The position numbers and the translations under genes are program-made. The notes beneath the pieces were generated by a model. The model was given only the letters and a program-made list of their open reading frames with translations. It did not search any database and was not told the DNA's origin. Positions 81 through 19,271 of a stretch of 22,278 nt of DNA are shown here, piece after piece; the first letter of the stretch is position 1, and every line of letters begins with the position of its first letter. This DNA is from a virus, in the IMG/VR virus record IMGVR_UViG_3300042549_003410, positions 1 to 22,278 of that record; one strand, given 5' to 3'.

Positions 81-3000
81 ATGGCAAGCACCTATTCAAG
101 TAACCTCAAGATTGAGCTGATGGGCACGGGTGAGAACGCGGGAACTTGGGGCACCATCACAAATACCAACTTGGGTACAGCCTATGAGCAGGCCGTCATT
201 GGTCTGGGCAATCCTGACTACACGTCTGATGCCAATCTGACCATCACCCTCACCGACAGCAACGCCTCACAAGCAGCGCGTTGCTTGGTCCTTAACGTGA
301 CCTCCGCGTTTGGTTCGCTCACGCAGACGCGCGAGCTGATAGTTCCTACCATCCAGAAGCAGTACATCGTTCAGAACAACACGACCGGTGGCCAAAGCAT
401 CACGGTTAAGACTTCTGGCGGCACTGGTATCACTGTTCCAAACGGCCGCAAGGCGCACTTGTATGTGGACGGCACGAACGTCATCCAGATGTTTGACTTT
501 GTCGACATCAACGGCGGCACGATTGACGGTGCAACTGTGGGTGCTGCTTCAGCTTCTACCGGTGCTTTCACTTCCCTCACCGCCTCTGGCGCGACCACTT
601 TGAACGGTGCGGTTGCCCTGGGCGACGCAGCTGGTGACTTGATCACTGTGCCTGGCACTGTGAACAGCAACTTGCTGTTTACCGACGCAACGTATGATAT
701 TGGCGCTTCTGGCGCGACGCGTCCTCGCGATCTGTTCTTGTCTCGCAACTTGACGGTTGGAGGCACGTTGACGCTTGCTGGTGGTGTGAACTTGAACGGC
801 AACGTGACCGTGGGCGACAGCTCTGCTGACACGCTGACCATCAACAGCACGATCACCAGCAACCTGATTTTTACCGACAACACCTACGACATTGGTGCCT
901 CTGGTGCAACACGTCCTCGCAGCTTGTTCCTGGCCGGCAACATCACCGCTGCGGGCAATCAGACGCTGACCGGCGCGTTGACCGTGGACAGCACGACTGA
1001 CTCCAGCAGCACGACCACTGGCTCGATCCAAACGGACGGTGGTGTGGGTATTGCCAAGGCGCTGTTTGTGGGAACCACGGCCAATGTGGCAGGCGTAGCC
1101 ACCTTGACGGCCGGCGCTCTTATCCAAGGCCTCACAGTAGGCCGTGGTGCAGGTGCTGTGTCGGACAACACCGTAGTTGGTTCAGGCGCTCTTGCTGTAA
1201 ACACAACGGGTGCAAGAAACTCCGCTTTTGGCAATGGCGCTCTAGCCGCCAATATAACAGGCACTGACAATGCCGCTTTTGGTCGTCTTGCGTTAACTGC
1301 TAATACTGGAAGTGGTAATAATGCTTTTGGTAGTGCGGCTTTATACAGCAACACGACAGGCGGTACAAATCAAGCGTTTGGCGATGGCGCACTTTTTAAT
1401 AATATTTCAGGTTCACGCAACGTAGCAGTTGGCGCTTCTGCTCTTTATACAAATACTGCTAACGACAACACGGCTGTTGGATATTTTGCTCTTAAATTAA
1501 ATACTACAGGCTCTCAAAATATTGCCGTTGGGCGTGAAGCCCTCCAAGCTAACACCACAGCAGGCAATAACACTGCTGTAGGTTATCAGTCGATGTATAC
1601 AAACACGACTGCGGCAAACAATGTGGCGTATGGTTATCAATCGTTGTACTCACAGAATAGTGCTACCAATACCAACAACACTGCATTGGGGTATCAGGTT
1701 CTTTATGCCAACACAACTGGTGCATCTAATGCAGGTGGTGGTTATGCCGCCTTGTTCCAAAACACCACGGGCAGTCAAAACACCGCCTTTGGTATGTCTG
1801 CGCTTCAAAACAACACCACAGCATCAAACAATACGGCTGTGGGTTATCAGGCGGCATATACAAACACAACTGGTATTCAAAACACAGCAATTGGAAATCA
1901 AGCGCTGTACACCGCAAGCACGGCTAATAACAATACCGCTGTTGGTCACACGGCGCTCTTTTCAACAACCGCAGGTGGTAACACGGCGGTTGGTATAGCC
2001 GCTGGTTATGCAAACACCACTGGAACAGACAATACTGGTGTTGGTGTTCTTTCGCTTCGGTTCAATACCACAGGCACTAATAATGTGGCATTTGGATACC
2101 AAGCCCTTTATTCCAACACCACAGTATCTGGCAACACTGCGCTAGGGTTTCAGGCTGGCTATAGCAACACTACAGGGGATTACTTGGTTGCTATCGGCTA
2201 CCAAGCAGGATACAGCAATACCACTGGACGTTTTAACGTAGCGTTGGGTAGGGGTGCGCTTTACACAAACTCAACGAGCAATGACAACACTGCTGTTGGG
2301 CAAGCCGCATTAAACCTATCAACTGGCTATGGAAACACCGCTATAGGCTCCAATGTTCTTGGCGTTAACACTACTGGCGCAAGTAATACTGGCGTTGGTA
2401 ATTCCGCTTTTGCAAGACACACCACTGGCTCAAACAACGTAGCAATTGGAGAAAGTGCGCTTGCTTTTAATACCACAGCATCTGGCAATACAGCGGTTGG
2501 TTATCAGGCGGCTTATGCAAATACAACTGGAGATGAAACTGTTGCAGTAGGCTATAGGGCTTTATATAGCCAAACTACGGGTCGCAATACTGCGATTGGA
2601 TTTTCTGCTGGTTTAGATATAACCACAGGGACGTTTAACACACTGATAGGTGGAGAGGCAGGTGAAAACATTACTACAGGCGGCTCCAACACTGCGCTGG
2701 GTACTCAAGCACTTCGCTTCAACACCACAGCCTCAAACAACACTGCTGTAGGTTTTCAGGCGGGGTATACGAATGTCACGGGTGCATCAAACGTCTATGT
2801 TGGTGGCGGTGCTGGAAGCCTTTCCACTGGTTCATTTAATACCTTTGTGGGTCAAGGCGCAGGTCTAAGCACCACGACTGGCTCAAGCCTTGTGATTATT
2901 GGACAAGGCGCTGGTACAAACGTAACCACAGGAACGTACAACGTCTACATCGGTGAGGCGGCAGGCGTTGGGGCAACAGCCTCAACAAACAACACGGGCT

Positions 3001-3812
3001 CCTACAACGTAGGAATTGGTGGGGTTAATAGTTATGCCAACACCTCTGGGTCAAACAACGTGTCTATGGGGCACGAAGCCCTGCGTGCAAATACAACGGG
3101 CTCAAATAATATTTCGCTTGGCTCTCAAGCACTGCGCCTAAACACAACAGGTTCAAACAACACGGCTGTAGGTTATCAGGCGGCGTACAGCCAAGTTACA
3201 GGAACAACAACTGCCGCTTTTGGTTATCTGGCGTTGACTACGGCTACAGCCTCAGACAACACTGGAATTGGGGCGCGTGCGCTGGAGTTATGCACTACTG
3301 GAAACGCCAATACAGCAGTTGGCTATTACACCTTCAGAGGTCTAACAACAGGCGCAGGCAACCTTGGATTTGGGTCTGTTAATGCGGCCGGTTCGGATGC
3401 GCCTGTGTTTAACGTGACAACGCAAAGCAGTCGAGTTGTGATGGGTCATACGGGCGTAACCAACGCTTATGTCCAAGTGGCATGGACAGTTGTTTCTGAT
3501 TTGCGTGACAAGATTGTTCTTGGCAATGTGCCGCTTGGTTTGGATTTTGTTCGCAAACTCAAACCAATTAAATACCAGTTCAAAGAGACCCGCGAAAGCG
3601 ACACACCACATGGTGTTGTCAAATACGGTTTTGGCGCACAAGATGTTTTGGCTGAAGAAGGTGAAAACCCTGTAATTGTGGACACCGAAGTAGCGGAAAA
3701 ACTGAAGATTACAGACTCACACATGATGCCTGTATTTGCAAACGCCATCAAAGAGATGGCAGATATGATTGACCAACTCAAGGCAGAAATTGCCGCACTT
3801 AAAGGAGCCTAA
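81..3812 (+). CDS. Tail fibre with beta-repeat shaft and C-terminal S74 intramolecular chaperone
   Basis: A 1243-residue receptor-binding fibre. The N-terminus (about 1-150, starting MASTYSSNLKIELMGTGEN) resembles virion-attachment domains of phage fibres. Residues 150-350 carry fibre motifs such as TGAFTSLTASGATTLNG, TYDIGASGATRPR (twice, 64 residues apart) and a GSIQTDGGVGIAKALFVG segment. About residues 355-1095 are some forty 17-residue units of the type NTAVGYQALYxNTTGxx, resembling YadA-like trimeric beta-roll repeats. The C-terminus from about 1139 is a Peptidase S74 chaperone: SDLRDK holds the Ser1139/Lys1144 pair that in characterised S74 domains performs self-cleavage after the trimer folds, and the end is a helical coiled coil (IKEMADMIDQLKAEIAAL). 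The start is supported by AAAGGA 7 bases upstream. The product is expected to be a trimer whose last ~105 residues are released. The family assignment is firm; the receptor is unknown. Confidence 0.93.
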   Translation: MASTYSSNLKIELMGTGENAGTWGTITNTNLGTAYEQAVIGLGNPDYTSDANLTITLTDSNASQAARCLVLNVTSAFGSLTQTRELIVPTIQKQYIVQNNTTGGQSITVKTSGGTGITVPNGRKAHLYVDGTNVIQMFDFVDINGGTIDGATVGAASASTGAFTSLTASGATTLNGAVALGDAAGDLITVPGTVNSNLLFTDATYDIGASGATRPRDLFLSRNLTVGGTLTLAGGVNLNGNVTVGDSSADTLTINSTITSNLIFTDNTYDIGASGATRPRSLFLAGNITAAGNQTLTGALTVDSTTDSSSTTTGSIQTDGGVGIAKALFVGTTANVAGVATLTAGALIQGLTVGRGAGAVSDNTVVGSGALAVNTTGARNSAFGNGALAANITGTDNAAFGRLALTANTGSGNNAFGSAALYSNTTGGTNQAFGDGALFNNISGSRNVAVGASALYTNTANDNTAVGYFALKLNTTGSQNIAVGREALQANTTAGNNTAVGYQSMYTNTTAANNVAYGYQSLYSQNSATNTNNTALGYQVLYANTTGASNAGGGYAALFQNTTGSQNTAFGMSALQNNTTASNNTAVGYQAAYTNTTGIQNTAIGNQALYTASTANNNTAVGHTALFSTTAGGNTAVGIAAGYANTTGTDNTGVGVLSLRFNTTGTNNVAFGYQALYSNTTVSGNTALGFQAGYSNTTGDYLVAIGYQAGYSNTTGRFNVALGRGALYTNSTSNDNTAVGQAALNLSTGYGNTAIGSNVLGVNTTGASNTGVGNSAFARHTTGSNNVAIGESALAFNTTASGNTAVGYQAAYANTTGDETVAVGYRALYSQTTGRNTAIGFSAGLDITTGTFNTLIGGEAGENITTGGSNTALGTQALRFNTTASNNTAVGFQAGYTNVTGASNVYVGGGAGSLSTGSFNTFVGQGAGLSTTTGSSLVIIGQGAGTNVTTGTYNVYIGEAAGVGATASTNNTGSYNVGIGGVNSYANTSGSNNVSMGHEALRANTTGSNNISLGSQALRLNTTGSNNTAVGYQAAYSQVTGTTTAAFGYLALTTATASDNTGIGARALELCTTGNANTAVGYYTFRGLTTGAGNLGFGSVNAAGSDAPVFNVTTQSSRVVMGHTGVTNAYVQVAWTVVSDLRDKIVLGNVPLGLDFVRKLKPIKYQFKETRESDTPHGVVKYGFGAQDVLAEEGENPVIVDTEVAEKLKITDSHMMPVFANAIKEMADMIDQLKAEIAALKGA
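666..950 (+). repeat. Two-copy fibre motif, 192 bp apart
   Basis: A segment of about 30 residues (SNL-[LI]-FTD-x-TYDIGASGATRPR-x-LFL-x2-N) occurs at 666-758 and again at 858-950. The offset is exactly 192 bases (64 codons). The protein is more conserved than the DNA, indicating an old in-frame duplication within the fibre neck or shaft. Confidence 0.8.
1150..3370 (+). repeat. Array of ~51-bp degenerate repeats inside the fibre gene
   Basis: Tandem in-frame units of about 51 bp encode 17-residue repeats with core A-V/F-G-Y-Q-A-x-Y-x-N-T-T-G. Most copies have diverged, but short exact identities remain: GGTTATCAGGCGG occurs at 1842-1854, 2499-2511 and 3171-3183, with near copies near 1580 and 2750. 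Unit length slips by one or a few residues in places (for example near 1660-1680 and 2975-3000). The array could expand or contract by recombination without losing the frame. Confidence 0.85.
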
Positions 3813-6129: not shown

Positions 6130-6202
6130 GCCAAAGTTTCTTTTTTTTGAGTTAAGTGCGAAAATGCCACATACCACAAAACTTCTTTGATTGGAGCCTC
6201 GT

Positions 6203-6361
6203 ATGAAAACCACGCCTGTTTGGGACAAAAAACGCCCTAAAAGCATTGGAAAACCCAAGGCTTTGACGCCTGCAAAGAAGTCTGCTGCGAAAGCTGCTGC
6301 CAAGAAAGCAGGACGCCCATACCCTAATCTTGTTGACAACATGCGTGCAGCAAAGGGCTAA
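6203..6361 (+). CDS. Short lysine-rich basic protein (52 aa)
   Basis: A short frame from ATG 6203 to TAA 6359-6361, preceded by TTGGAG (6191-6196). The product begins MKTTPVWDKKRPKSIGKPKA, continues with a Lys/Ala block resembling histone-H1-like tails (residues 22-36), and ends in PYPNLVDNMRAAKG. It has about 14 Lys and 3 Arg in 52 residues and almost no acidic residues, so a nucleic-acid-binding role or a small virion component are the natural guesses. It sits 2 bases before the nozzle-like gene and 73 bases after the holin. Distinct conserved-looking ends flanking the low-complexity core argue against chance. Confidence 0.72.
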   Translation: MKTTPVWDKKRPKSIGKPKALTPAKKSAAKAAAKKAGRPYPNLVDNMRAAKG

Positions 6362-6363
6362 AA

Positions 6364-8214: not shown

Positions 8215-8921
8215 GCAAGATCAACAACGTCCGCCTGCCCAACGCGAGCACTGGCGGCTACGACCCGCAACAGTTCAACCAGCTGGTGCGTTCGCTTGAG
8301 CAGGTAATCTTTCAGCTCAATAACACTTACACACCTGTTACCAGCGAAAACACCGCTGGCGCTGCAACGTGGATGGCCATGGGCAGCGGAGCGGGAGGCG
8401 GGTTTGCTGGTGGTATCCGTGGGTTCCAGAACAGCAACGGCATCATCTTGCCCCAGGCAATGATGATCTCGGACCAGGACCAGACAAACGCCAGCATCAC
8501 GGGTGAGAATCTGTTGACGTTTGCCCCAGCGTTTTCCAACGGCATCAGCGTGGTAAGCGGCTCACAAATCAAGGTTCCTTGCGCAGGCCAGTACCTGGTG
8601 ACATTTACCTTGCAGGTAACAAACCGCAGCAATACAGCCGCTGAATTTGAGGTATGGGCCAAGGACACTGGCGTCAACTACCCGTTAAGCAACACACGCT
8701 TTGACGTACCTGCTCGTAAAAGCGGCAGTATTTGGTCCCACATAGTCCCAGCAATTACTGGTATTTTCACTGTAGATGATCCCACCAACGACTACTTGCA
8801 AGTTGCCTGGTGGTCGGATAATTTGAACGTCTTTATTCAGAACTATGCTGCGGGCACAAGTCCCACACGCCCTGCCATTCCGTCGGTGATTCTCACCATC
8901 AACTTTGTATCGGCGAACTGA
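8211..8921 (+). CDS. Virion protein with C-terminal jelly-roll (C1q/TNF-like) fold
   Basis: A 236-residue protein starting MSKINNVRLPNASTGGYDPQ. The ATG at 8211 in an ATGA overlap with the nozzle gene was preferred over an upstream in-frame ATG at 8160 that lies inside that gene. Residues 17-38 form a helix (QFNQLVRSLEQVIFQLN), followed by a glycine-rich linker. The part from about 85 on has the strand pattern of phage C1q/TNF-like jelly rolls, including CAGQYLVTFTLQV, EFEVWAKDTG, DYLQVAWWSDN and a final PAIPSVILTINFV. Such domains often trimerise and decorate tails or heads. A tail or neck decoration role is inferred from fold and position. Confidence 0.83.
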   Translation: MSKINNVRLPNASTGGYDPQQFNQLVRSLEQVIFQLNNTYTPVTSENTAGAATWMAMGSGAGGGFAGGIRGFQNSNGIILPQAMMISDQDQTNASITGENLLTFAPAFSNGISVVSGSQIKVPCAGQYLVTFTLQVTNRSNTAAEFEVWAKDTGVNYPLSNTRFDVPARKSGSIWSHIVPAITGIFTVDDPTNDYLQVAWWSDNLNVFIQNYAAGTSPTRPAIPSVILTINFVSAN

Positions 8922-8923
8922 TC

Positions 8924-9256
8924 ATGGCAAACAAATACCTGCGCAAATACCTCACTCCGGCAGCTGCAACGGAGACAACGATCTACACCGCGCCTGCTGC
9001 AAATACGGGTGTTTTGTCCTCTTTGCGGGTGACAAACAGAAACGCCTCTACCACAGCTTTGACGGTCAACGTCTATCCGGCTGGCGGGGCTACTGCATTT
9101 TGTTTGTTGAAGACTTATTCACTGCCCACGAACCAGACTTTGGATGTTTTAAGCGGTGTGCCCTGTGTGCTGGAGGCAGCGGACGTGATTAAAGTCCTCA
9201 GTTCGATGGCGACAGTTGACTTTTACTTGTCCTATTTAGAGATAGACAGATCGTAA
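8924..9256 (+). CDS. Small beta-sandwich-like virion protein
   Basis: A 110-residue protein (MANKYLRKYLTPAAATETTIYTAP) made mostly of short beta strands: SSLRVTNRNASTTALTVNVYPAG, CLLKTYSLPTNQTLDVL and a hydrophobic end. The ATG follows the previous stop by two bases. The pattern resembles small neck or head-tail fibre proteins of other podophages, but no diagnostic motif is present. It is the last gene before the leader region at 9257-9361. Its stop TAA shares one base with the ATG of a short leader frame. Function unassigned; virion component by context. Confidence 0.8.
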   Translation: MANKYLRKYLTPAAATETTIYTAPAANTGVLSSLRVTNRNASTTALTVNVYPAGGATAFCLLKTYSLPTNQTLDVLSGVPCVLEAADVIKVLSSMATVDFYLSYLEIDRS

Positions 9257-9372
9257 TGAGTGGACAAAACTTGATCTTTTGTTGGATAATTACAGCCATT
9301 AACGCGTCCTTTCCCGGCGCGCGGCCCGTGAGGCCTTTGGCAAAAACTGGAAAGGACTATCATGGCAACTGA
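9256..9372 (+). CDS. Candidate leader ORF (38 aa) coupled to neighbours
   Basis: A 38-codon frame starts at ATG 9256 as part of TAATG (stop of the previous gene) and ends at TGA 9370-9372, eight bases past the start of the 737-aa gene. The product (MSGQNLIFCWIITAIN then a basic tail) has no family signal. No separate ribosome-binding site is evident, so initiation would rely on ribosomes ending the upstream gene. Its reading passes through both arms of the stem at 9306-9357 and could unfold it. It may simply be a chance open frame. Confidence 0.3.
   Translation: MSGQNLIFCWIITAINASFPGARPVRPLAKTGKDYHGN
9261..9290 (+). promoter_or_regulatory. Sigma70-like promoter ahead of the internal-virion gene block
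   Basis: TGGACA at 9261-9266 matches 5 of 6 bases of the -35 consensus and GATAAT at 9285-9290 matches 5 of 6 of the -10, separated by 18 bases. Transcription would start near 9297-9298, giving a leader of about 64 bases ahead of ATG 9362. This is the best promoter-like match I found in the intergenic regions read by eye. It also lies in the only sizeable gap within the structural block. Confidence 0.55.
9306..9357 (+). promoter_or_regulatory. Leader stem that sequesters the RBS of the 737-aa gene
   Basis: GTCCTTTCC (9306-9314) is perfectly complementary to GGAAAGGAC (9349-9357), which contains the Shine-Dalgarno sequence of the gene starting at 9362. The 34-base loop is GC-rich on its left side and can form an inner GGCC/GGCC hairpin (9323-9326 with 9332-9335). 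The outer stem would hide the ribosome-binding site unless opened by a ribosome, RNA or protein. Confidence 0.5.
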
Positions 9373-11575
9373 AGGAATCATGGCCTTGCCTCAAGGCATG
9401 GGCATGCAGGGCGAACAAGCCCAACAAGAACAACCGACCGTCACGAGCGCTGACTCCTACGACGCCGCGATGACTGCCCTTGGCATGGTCAATCCAGGCG
9501 AAGAAGTCGCGCTAAAAGAGGCCATTCGCCAAAACATTGGTGACCTTCAGCTCTCGCCTGCACAGCTTGACATGCTTATCCAGGTTTTTGAATACATCAG
9601 TCAAAACCCCAGCGAATATAAGAGCTTGCTCCGAGACTTGGTTCAGGCAGACGCCCTTGATGAAGGGGACATGCCAGAAGAATACGATCCTGAGTTTATT
9701 GGCGCGATGCTCGCGGTGCTGCAAGAGATGCGGCAGATGCAGGGCGCTGGTGCTCAAGAACCTATGAACATGGGTCCTACCGTCGAAGGCCTACAGCCCA
9801 TAGGCATGGCCTCTGGCGGCTTGGCCGATGTTGGTCAGTACCTGGCTGCCCAGGGCCGCTACGGCGATACCATGCTGGCGCATATCACCCCGGAAGAGGC
9901 CGCGCTGCTCAAGCGCCGTGGCGGCTCGGGCACGATTAACCCCGTTACCGGCCTGCCAGAATTCTTTCTTAAAAAACTTTTTGGCGCGGTTAAGAGTGTC
10001 GTCAAGGGCGTTGTAAACGTCGTCAAAGACGTGCTCAAGAGCCCTGTTGGGCGTATCTTGGGCACCATTGCGTTGGCCGCTGTCCTCGGACCAGCAGGCG
10101 TGGGCCTTTCCATGGGCACTGCAGCAGGTCTCGCGGGCGCAGGAACGACGCTCATGGCCGGCGGATCAATCAAGGAAGCCTTGATCTCTGGTGCGTTGGG
10201 CTACGTTGGCGGTGGTGGCACGATTATGGGTGTAAATCCCGTGTCTGCTGTTGGCGGTTACTTGCCTGGCGCAGCCGGCAGTGCGTTGAACACAGGCCTG
10301 TCAACAGGCTTGATTGGCGCGGGTATCGGCAAGATCAGCGGCATGAGCACACAAGACGCATTGCGGATGGGCCTGATGTCTGGCGCGTCGGCAGCAGCGC
10401 TTCAAGGCCTGAAGAACAACACAAGCATGATGAATGAGCCGGTCTCGCTTGAGTCCGGTAATCAGCCTCCTGCCGCCCCGTTGCCCGGTGAACCGGGCAG
10501 CAATGTTTTAGTTGGTGGAAAGCCTGATATTACTGCTATTGAAGCAACAGGGCCCGCAGGCACGACAGGTACCGCACGCGACCTTTTGGCCGGCGGTAAT
10601 CAGCAATACTCAGGTTCTGGCTTGAAAATGCCTGCAATGGGGCCGTCTGCCGGCTTTGACGCTGCAGGCAACTTCCGAGGCGATTACAGCTTGGCTGGTG
10701 CTCCTTCTGCTCCAATTCCTGGCATGGAAGGCGCGATCGGTACTGGCCTACGTGCAGGTCCTGCAATGACTGGTGCTCCTGGTATGGGAGACGCGTTGGG
10801 CACTGGCCTACGCGCCCCCGTAAGCCCTGCAACAATGGCAAGCGGCGCTGCCAACTACAGCCTGTCCAGCGTTCCCCAGGGCGCACAACCTACTGGCTTT
10901 ATTGACAAGATGGTCCAGGGCGGCAAGAACTTGTACAACGAATACCTCTCGCCAACCCGTGCGGGTTTACCCGCAGACGCTGGCATCATCCAAAAATACG
11001 GTCCTTTGGCGTTGGCCGGAACTACCGCCGTAGCAGCTGCTGGCGGCATGAAATCTGAACCCGTAAACCAGAACCCTGCGTTTAACCGCAACTACACCGG
11101 TTCTGACTACATGCGGGATAACCCTGATAAATTCAGTGGTGGTCTTAGCAGCTACACCAAGCCTACGACACCGGACAACCCTATTGTTCCTACACCTTCG
11201 TATGGCTCAATTCCTATTGGATCGCCCAGCACTGTTGTTCCTATGGGCGTAACCAATAGCCCTGGTGGTGTTGCACAACCTTACAACGTAGCTGGTTTGT
11301 ATGGCATTCCAATCATCTATGGTCCTGACGGACAGCCCCGTCGCATGGCCAAGGGCGGTGACGCCACAATGACGCAGTTCCCACGCAAGACGGGACCGAT
11401 CAACGGCCCTGGCACAGGAACTTCGGATGACATCCCCGCAATGCTGTCGGACGGTGAATTTGTGTTTACGGCCAAAGCCGTGCGCAACGCCGGAGGCGGC
11501 AGTCGTCGCAAGGGTGCGGCTCGCATGTACAAGTTAATGAAGAAGCTCGAAGGCGGAGCCGTTAAGGGGAAATAA
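9362..11575 (+). CDS. Large internal-virion / ejection-like protein with amphipathic membrane segment (737 aa)
   Basis: A 737-residue Ala/Gly/Met-rich protein. Residues 30-130 are helical and acidic. Then comes MASGGLADVGQYLAAQGRYGD (149-169), a motif shared by many large phage structural proteins, and HITPEEAALLKRRGGSGTIN. Residues 199-228 form a cationic amphipathic helix (FFLKKLFGAVKSVVKGVVNV then VKDVLKSPVG), followed by about 110 residues of Gly/Ala-rich hydrophobic sequence (230-345), suggesting membrane insertion. Residues 350-660 are low complexity. The C-terminus has a conserved block GPGTGTSDDIPAMLSDGEFV then TAKAVRNAGG and MYKLMKKLEGG. Good RBS (GGAAAGGA). First of four large genes with 0-9 base gaps. 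I read it as a protein packaged in the head and ejected with DNA; no enzymatic motif is seen. Confidence 0.85.
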   Translation: MATEGIMALPQGMGMQGEQAQQEQPTVTSADSYDAAMTALGMVNPGEEVALKEAIRQNIGDLQLSPAQLDMLIQVFEYISQNPSEYKSLLRDLVQADALDEGDMPEEYDPEFIGAMLAVLQEMRQMQGAGAQEPMNMGPTVEGLQPIGMASGGLADVGQYLAAQGRYGDTMLAHITPEEAALLKRRGGSGTINPVTGLPEFFLKKLFGAVKSVVKGVVNVVKDVLKSPVGRILGTIALAAVLGPAGVGLSMGTAAGLAGAGTTLMAGGSIKEALISGALGYVGGGGTIMGVNPVSAVGGYLPGAAGSALNTGLSTGLIGAGIGKISGMSTQDALRMGLMSGASAAALQGLKNNTSMMNEPVSLESGNQPPAAPLPGEPGSNVLVGGKPDITAIEATGPAGTTGTARDLLAGGNQQYSGSGLKMPAMGPSAGFDAAGNFRGDYSLAGAPSAPIPGMEGAIGTGLRAGPAMTGAPGMGDALGTGLRAPVSPATMASGAANYSLSSVPQGAQPTGFIDKMVQGGKNLYNEYLSPTRAGLPADAGIIQKYGPLALAGTTAVAAAGGMKSEPVNQNPAFNRNYTGSDYMRDNPDKFSGGLSSYTKPTTPDNPIVPTPSYGSIPIGSPSTVVPMGVTNSPGGVAQPYNVAGLYGIPIIYGPDGQPRRMAKGGDATMTQFPRKTGPINGPGTGTSDDIPAMLSDGEFVFTAKAVRNAGGGSRRKGAARMYKLMKKLEGGAVKGK

Positions 11576-19116: not shown

Positions 19117-19130
19117 TCTTGGTGGTGTTT

Positions 19131-19271
19131 ATGGTCACTCAACCTCAGTTGAACAGCGAGCGAAAGCGCGCACCGACCGAAGCACCAAAGATGGAGTGCG
19201 TCCGATGGTCTTGGACGGGGGACGTTTACAACCGCAGAGTGTATTGTCTTGAGTGGCGTAAAAAGAAATGA
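19131..19271 (+). CDS. Short Trp/Arg-rich protein (46 aa) coupled by ATGA
   Basis: A frame from ATG 19131 to TGA 19269-19271 that overlaps the next gene start as ATGA (19268-19271), the same coupling used elsewhere in this genome. GGTGG at 19121-19125 can serve as ribosome-binding site. The product begins MVTQPQLNSERKRAPTEAPK and ends in a compact aromatic/basic motif (MECVRWSWTGDVYNRRVYCL then EWRKKK) with two cysteines. Without it the 150 bases between 19116 and 19268 would be an oddly long gap for this operon. No family recognised. An internal ATG at 19191 is an alternative start. Confidence 0.6.
   Translation: MVTQPQLNSERKRAPTEAPKMECVRWSWTGDVYNRRVYCLEWRKKK

Follow-up and report, generated by a model that had tools for sequence, protein, structure and literature searches.

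Genomic context of the leader

The window, that is, the whole stretch of DNA analysed here, is a 22-kb virus record of 22,278 nucleotides in which profile matches were found to endolysin, holin, virion structural proteins and helicase. An open reading frame of 737 aa with a tape-measure-like C-terminus is located on the plus strand at 9362-11575 and begins with the ATG at 9362. Its homologue in phage DSL-LC04 (OR003939, Dishui Lake) is annotated as a tail tape measure protein, and the corresponding genes of that phage are annotated as stabilization protein, hypothetical proteins, tail tape measure protein and, last in the block, DNA transfer protein. Judging from the DSL-LC04 annotation, the name 'ejection-protein block', used for the window genes in the initial annotation, is plausible. 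The gap in front of the 737-aa gene had also been described as the only sizeable one in the structural operon. This is roughly right for 9257-9361, but the gap at 19117-19267 is longer and the one at 6130-6363 holds a small ORF. The latter gap precedes a 616-aa gene, and its ORF (6191-6361, 56 aa) is rich in lysine and alanine and has a T-run before it. Elsewhere in the window, positions 81-3812 encode a tail-spike-like protein of 1243 aa with many degenerate repeat units of 48-51 bp and a weak C-terminal match to Peptidase_S74 (endosialidase chaperone).

A promoter-like sequence of the sigma70 type, TGGACA-18-GATAAT, does lie just upstream of the gene (9261-9290, plus strand), with a predicted +1 at about 9296-9298. 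The same layout with a spacing of 17 or 18 was observed in 115 distinct leaders, which were gathered by a pattern that itself contained the promoter. The common arrangement is TRGACA, 17 or 18 nt, SATAAT, usually 11-12 nt, the RNA element, the Shine-Dalgarno (SD) sequence and ATG. The usual spacing of 11-12 nt from the -10 box to P2, the first hairpin of the element, leaves about 5 nt between the predicted 5' end and P2. The leader is tied to the promoter; one locus, L243, misses both the -10 box and the leader.

The sequences GTCCTTTCC (9306-9314) and GGAAAGGAC (9349-9357), both on the plus strand, are exact reverse complements over 9 nt, and the second contains the SD (AAAGGA) of the 737-aa ORF. 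The pairing, its coordinates and the overlap with the SD were therefore correctly described in the initial annotation. By our own arithmetic, some 50 nt of upstream sequence would contain an exact 9-nt match to the complement of one particular SD about 2e-4 times by chance. A second SD-like/ATG pair, GAAGGAATCATGG, is found just within the gene at 9362-9385 (M-x-x-EGIM), and an internal start at this pair is possible. Conservation of the GIM motif is probably at the protein level because the motif occurs also in homologues without the leader.

Distribution of the leader among related phages

A protein search with the 737-aa product gave 68 viral loci and a DNA pattern search gave at least 119 stretches, while two profile searches added distant relatives. 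The protein-similarity and profile loci were gathered independently of the leader, and 34 of the counted main-clade leaders are of this kind. Conservation of the leader at these loci is thus no search artefact. Because certain loci are on the same contig or overlap one another, locus counts exceed the number of independent phages, and distinct leaders were used for the pair counts. The related sequences are mostly metagenomic and unannotated.

The same leader recurs in about 100 distinct relatives, a large group of freshwater phages, where it follows a sigma70-type promoter (TRGACA-17/18-SATAAT) and precedes the homologous gene. The leader is kept while the downstream proteins drop to about 33-44% identity, and the sole DNA similarity of DSL-LC04 to 8500-10500 consists of the leader and the gene start. 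When 19 whole records were searched, 18 had one strong leader match each. The other, a 58-kb record (L225, G009), has a leader of equal score at each end (18-89 and 58225-58296), as expected from a terminally redundant or circular assembly. Weak extra matches of the model in whole records were taken as chance (E 0.2 or worse), and no further copies of the motif were found within the window.

Many more distant homologues of the gene are without the leader (for example L302-L306, L311, L316 and L331), and in most of them the start is preceded by a plain SD of the AAGGAA type. The leader match was also absent from the weakly protein-similar named phages, which are Methylophilales phage Venkman, Pelagibacter phage HTVC104P, MW202753 and MW202825. 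Two pattern matches in bacterial genomes (Roseomonas and Planctomycetota MAGs), considered as a hint to the host, are in unrelated sequence and look like chance, and one further pattern match (L075) in a different context was also rejected as chance. The literature search found no paper that links a structured phage RNA with a tape measure gene and a riboswitch, and none that deals with DSL-LC04.

Conserved fold of P2, P3 and P1

The leader contains two adjacent hairpins on the plus strand. In P2, the 5' arm CGCGTC (9303-9308) pairs with the 3' arm GGCGCG (9316-9321) and encloses the apical loop CTTTCCC (9309-9315), which is complementary to the SD (CTTTCC/GGAAAG). A single C at 9322 joins P2 to the P3 hairpin, GGCC-CGTGA-GGCC (9323-9335); it shows no changes in 67 main-clade leaders and is C in 109 of the 111 parsed leaders. 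Both hairpins are enclosed by a weaker helix, P1, formed between GCCA (9295-9298) and TGGC (9338-9341). The initial annotation had placed a structured GC-rich loop between the two SD-pairing arms. This region is indeed structured, but the description understated it, as it holds the 3' half of P2 and all of P3, and P2 takes bases of the left arm.

A covariance model matched 89 leaders in one locus set and 98 in the final set. In the alignment fitted to this model, 99.1% of the P2 cells are paired across 98 leaders with two-sided changes at four of the six pairs, P3 is 94.6% paired with two-sided changes at 4/4 pairs and P1 is 71% paired with two-sided changes likewise at 4/4. P2 is CGCGUC with GGCGCG or GACGCG, and its two-sided variants include CACGUC/GACGUG (L214, L251), CACGUC/GGCGUG (L237), CGUGC/GCACG (L244), CAUGC/GCAUG (L236) and CGCCUC/GAGGUG (L218). 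P3 was observed as GGCC/GGCC, AGCC/GGCU, GACC/GGUC, GGUC/GACC and GGCUC/GAGCU. On the tree of the downstream protein, the outer P3 pair changed about 21 times with none unpaired among 89 leaders, and four P2 pairs changed 6, 3, 1 and 1 times and were never unpaired.

The covariation score, from the same fitted alignment, was 0.277, whereas slid partners scored no more than 0.087 and 0 of 500 shuffles reached it. For P1, swapping of partners gave 0/2000 in the main clade and 121/2000 in the distant leaders, where there is no clear excess; the shuffle and swap tests keep shared ancestry in, and we claim no exact significance from them. RNAalifold, run unguided on an unfitted MAFFT alignment, also gave P2 and P3, and the main clade alone gave the same, with some SDs out of register. 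The folding energy of 9257-9420 was unremarkable against shuffles (z = 0.06), and hence it is conservation that reveals the element, as energy alone could not. From these alignments the P2/P3 structure is well supported.

According to these results, the simple 9-bp stem of the initial annotation is not the unit that has been preserved. In roughly half of the leaders in the alignment, its end pair, 9306/9357, is a wobble or does not form, and the P2 and P3 hairpins picked by RNAalifold from the unfitted alignment are incompatible with the full stem. Covariation of the two arms was looked for in the relatives and none is claimed, the arms being near-invariant; the compensatory changes are found in P2, P3 and P1.

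Two adjacent stem-loops near a phage promoter resemble, by description, putL and putR of phage HK022, which consist of two stem-loops, spanning about 70 nt, that follow an early promoter and cause antitermination via the beta' zinc-binding domain of RNA polymerase (PMC9378689). It is conceivable that the leader also acts on elongating polymerase as a nascent-RNA antiterminator of the put type. We consider this very unlikely, because the two hairpins occupy about 33 nt, roughly half the size of put, have no match in Rfam, are always found right beside the SD of one gene and, for the window's clade, include complementarity to that SD. In addition, a search for intrinsic terminators found no terminator-like site within 8900-9700.

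The position of P1 bears on another phage system. In T4, the SD or AUG of genes e, soc, 49 and I-TevI is sequestered by an mRNA helix, and for gene e, transcripts from a late promoter lack the 5' part of that helix (PMC3014915). The leader is similar in that the SD of a phage gene would be placed in an RNA helix with a promoter close upstream. Escape of the gene e type would mean that read-through transcripts hide the SD while transcripts from the promoter lack the 5' arm and get translated. The 5' arm of P1 straddles the predicted +1 and P1 may thus form only in read-through RNA. However, the predicted +1 (9296-9298) is upstream of both P2 (9303) and the 9-bp left arm (9306), so that both kinds of transcript carry them, and the arms are set in a covarying two-hairpin fold unlike that of gene e. 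We therefore see only a slim chance for this type of escape.

Conservation of the P2 loop and the SD

In the 67 main-clade leaders, the columns of CGCGUCCUUU show 0-1 change each, and GGCGCG is unchanged apart from the U-G/U-A column. The CCUUUCC loop and GGAAAGG show 0-3 changes per column on the tree, with no more than two in any column of GGAAAGG, while most neighbouring unpaired columns show 10-28. The variable positions are the last base of the loop and position 9357 at the end of the right arm, with 14 changes at the latter. The conservation of the loop holds also in the 34 main-clade leaders from the protein search. The CGCG on both sides is required by P2 and unneeded by the 9-bp stem, whereas the first GG of GGAAAGG is unneeded by a canonical SD and required for the pairing with the loop. 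Since neither side covaries, the loop-SD pairing is inferred from joint conservation; the first MAFFT counts had suggested that loop and SD covary, but this signal came partly from misregistered SDs and was dropped.

In 22 distant leaders, P2 and P3 are kept but the P2 loop is shrunken or altered (e.g. UUCG, UCU and AUAU), and its complementarity to the SD is no better than that of swapped partners. The expectation that relatives with the same gene order would keep both arms thus holds for the main clade, where a 7-nt core is almost unvaried and the SD is complementary to the upstream segment, but not for the distant leaders with P2 and P3, in which this complementarity is gone. On this comparative evidence, what is conserved is a folded leader RNA, to which one lineage adds the hiding of the SD, since these 22 leaders keep the hairpins and lose the complementarity. 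P2 and P3 must, by the same comparison, serve another role in the distant leaders because loop-SD complementarity there is at the level of swapped pairs.

Such a role could be that of a 5'-end module unrelated to translation, in which the stacked hairpins block 5'-dependent decay or bind a phage or host protein and the SD complementarity is secondary and confined to one clade. The retention of P2 and P3 with shrunken loops that do not match the SD fits this explanation, as does the closeness of P2 to the predicted 5' end. It leaves unexplained why, in the main clade, the loop is conserved together with those bases of GGAAAGG that lie outside the SD, and we regard it as rather unlikely though deserving of consideration.

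The variation of the loops is relevant also to a metabolite riboswitch governing translation. A junction of P1, P2 and P3, if formed, would together with a loop-SD pseudoknot look like the architecture of translational riboswitches. Nevertheless, the P2 and P3 loops vary freely in the distant leaders, few unpaired bases are conserved and the leader precedes one virion gene only. Furthermore, the Rfam covariance models assigned the leader to no family; the only match, to an miRNA on the opposite strand, is due to chance and scores far under its gathering score. A metabolite riboswitch is accordingly extremely improbable.

Two predicted closed forms of the leader

Full P2 and the full 9-bp stem are mutually exclusive because both use the GUC of the P2 5' arm, and full pairing of the left arm needs P2 to be opened. 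The core CUUUCC/GGAAAG is compatible with P2 as a pseudoknot or can be part of the 9-bp helix. In nested energy models, outside which the pseudoknot falls, the 9-bp form has a median advantage of 5.1 kcal/mol across 65 leaders when compared with P2 and an unpaired SD. The median unpaired probability of the SD in the nested model is 0.006 in the main clade against 0.41 in the distant leaders, in agreement with the earlier proposal that the SD is hidden in the fold, and the SD is predicted to be occluded in the window's clade. Stepwise folding of the window leader passes from P2 to P2 with P3 and, when the SD has been added, to the 9-bp helix; with more coding sequence, P2 forms return at similar or better energy. 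The favored state thus varies with the length of downstream sequence folded, and these models are consistent with either a pseudoknot on P2 or a rearrangement into the 9-bp helix.

The autoregulatory pseudoknot of T4 gene 32 precedes the initiation region and serves as the nucleation site for gp32, with the SD outside the pseudoknot (PMC3014915). Both it and the leader are found in a phage mRNA leader and relate to translational control of one gene, the pseudoknot being only a candidate here. They differ in that the SD itself is in the candidate pairing of our leader and that no regulator protein is known for it. In the leader of the MS2 maturation protein, the SD pairs with an upstream complement and delayed refolding could limit a low-copy virion protein. 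The presence of an SD with its upstream complement is common to both leaders, and slow refolding may be limiting in ours as well; MS2 differs as an RNA phage with a larger leader fold.

Proposed role in expression of the tape-measure gene

The element is probably a cis-acting translational-control leader with which the transcript of the last virion-gene block begins, before the tape-measure/ejection gene. A cis-acting leader of one transcript is the simplest reading of the single strong match in 18 of the 19 whole records and the equal matches at both ends of the other. P2 and P3 would form first as the RNA emerges from the polymerase. Once the SD is transcribed, the P2 loop would pair with it, either as a pseudoknot atop P2 or through rearrangement into the 9-bp helix, and the SD would be closed in both forms. 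The first large tape-measure-like/internal protein may consequently be made little, late or only on nascent RNA unless the SD is opened by ribosomes or a trans factor. The regulatory role, including repression, its timing and the trigger, is put forward here as an inference.

A more specific reading is offered tentatively, as one that could well prove wrong. The leader might represent a new phage leader RNA family (P2-C-P3, often with P1 and the loop-SD pseudoknot) that works as a genuine switch. A factor from the phage or its host, or ribosomes moving along nascent RNA, would open it and so set the amount or timing of the tape-measure/ejection protein, and in distant relatives the same RNA would act with the SD uncovered.

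The sampling of structured cis-regulatory RNAs from tailed phages is still thin. The present leader shows strong covariation and has a fixed place, at the last virion-gene promoter and before one gene. It occurs in essentially a single copy per genome, and its many natural variants include distant ones that lack the SD pairing. It would therefore be a good test bed for how phages set the levels of particular virion proteins and for how an SD-loop interaction rides on a more widely conserved RNA fold.
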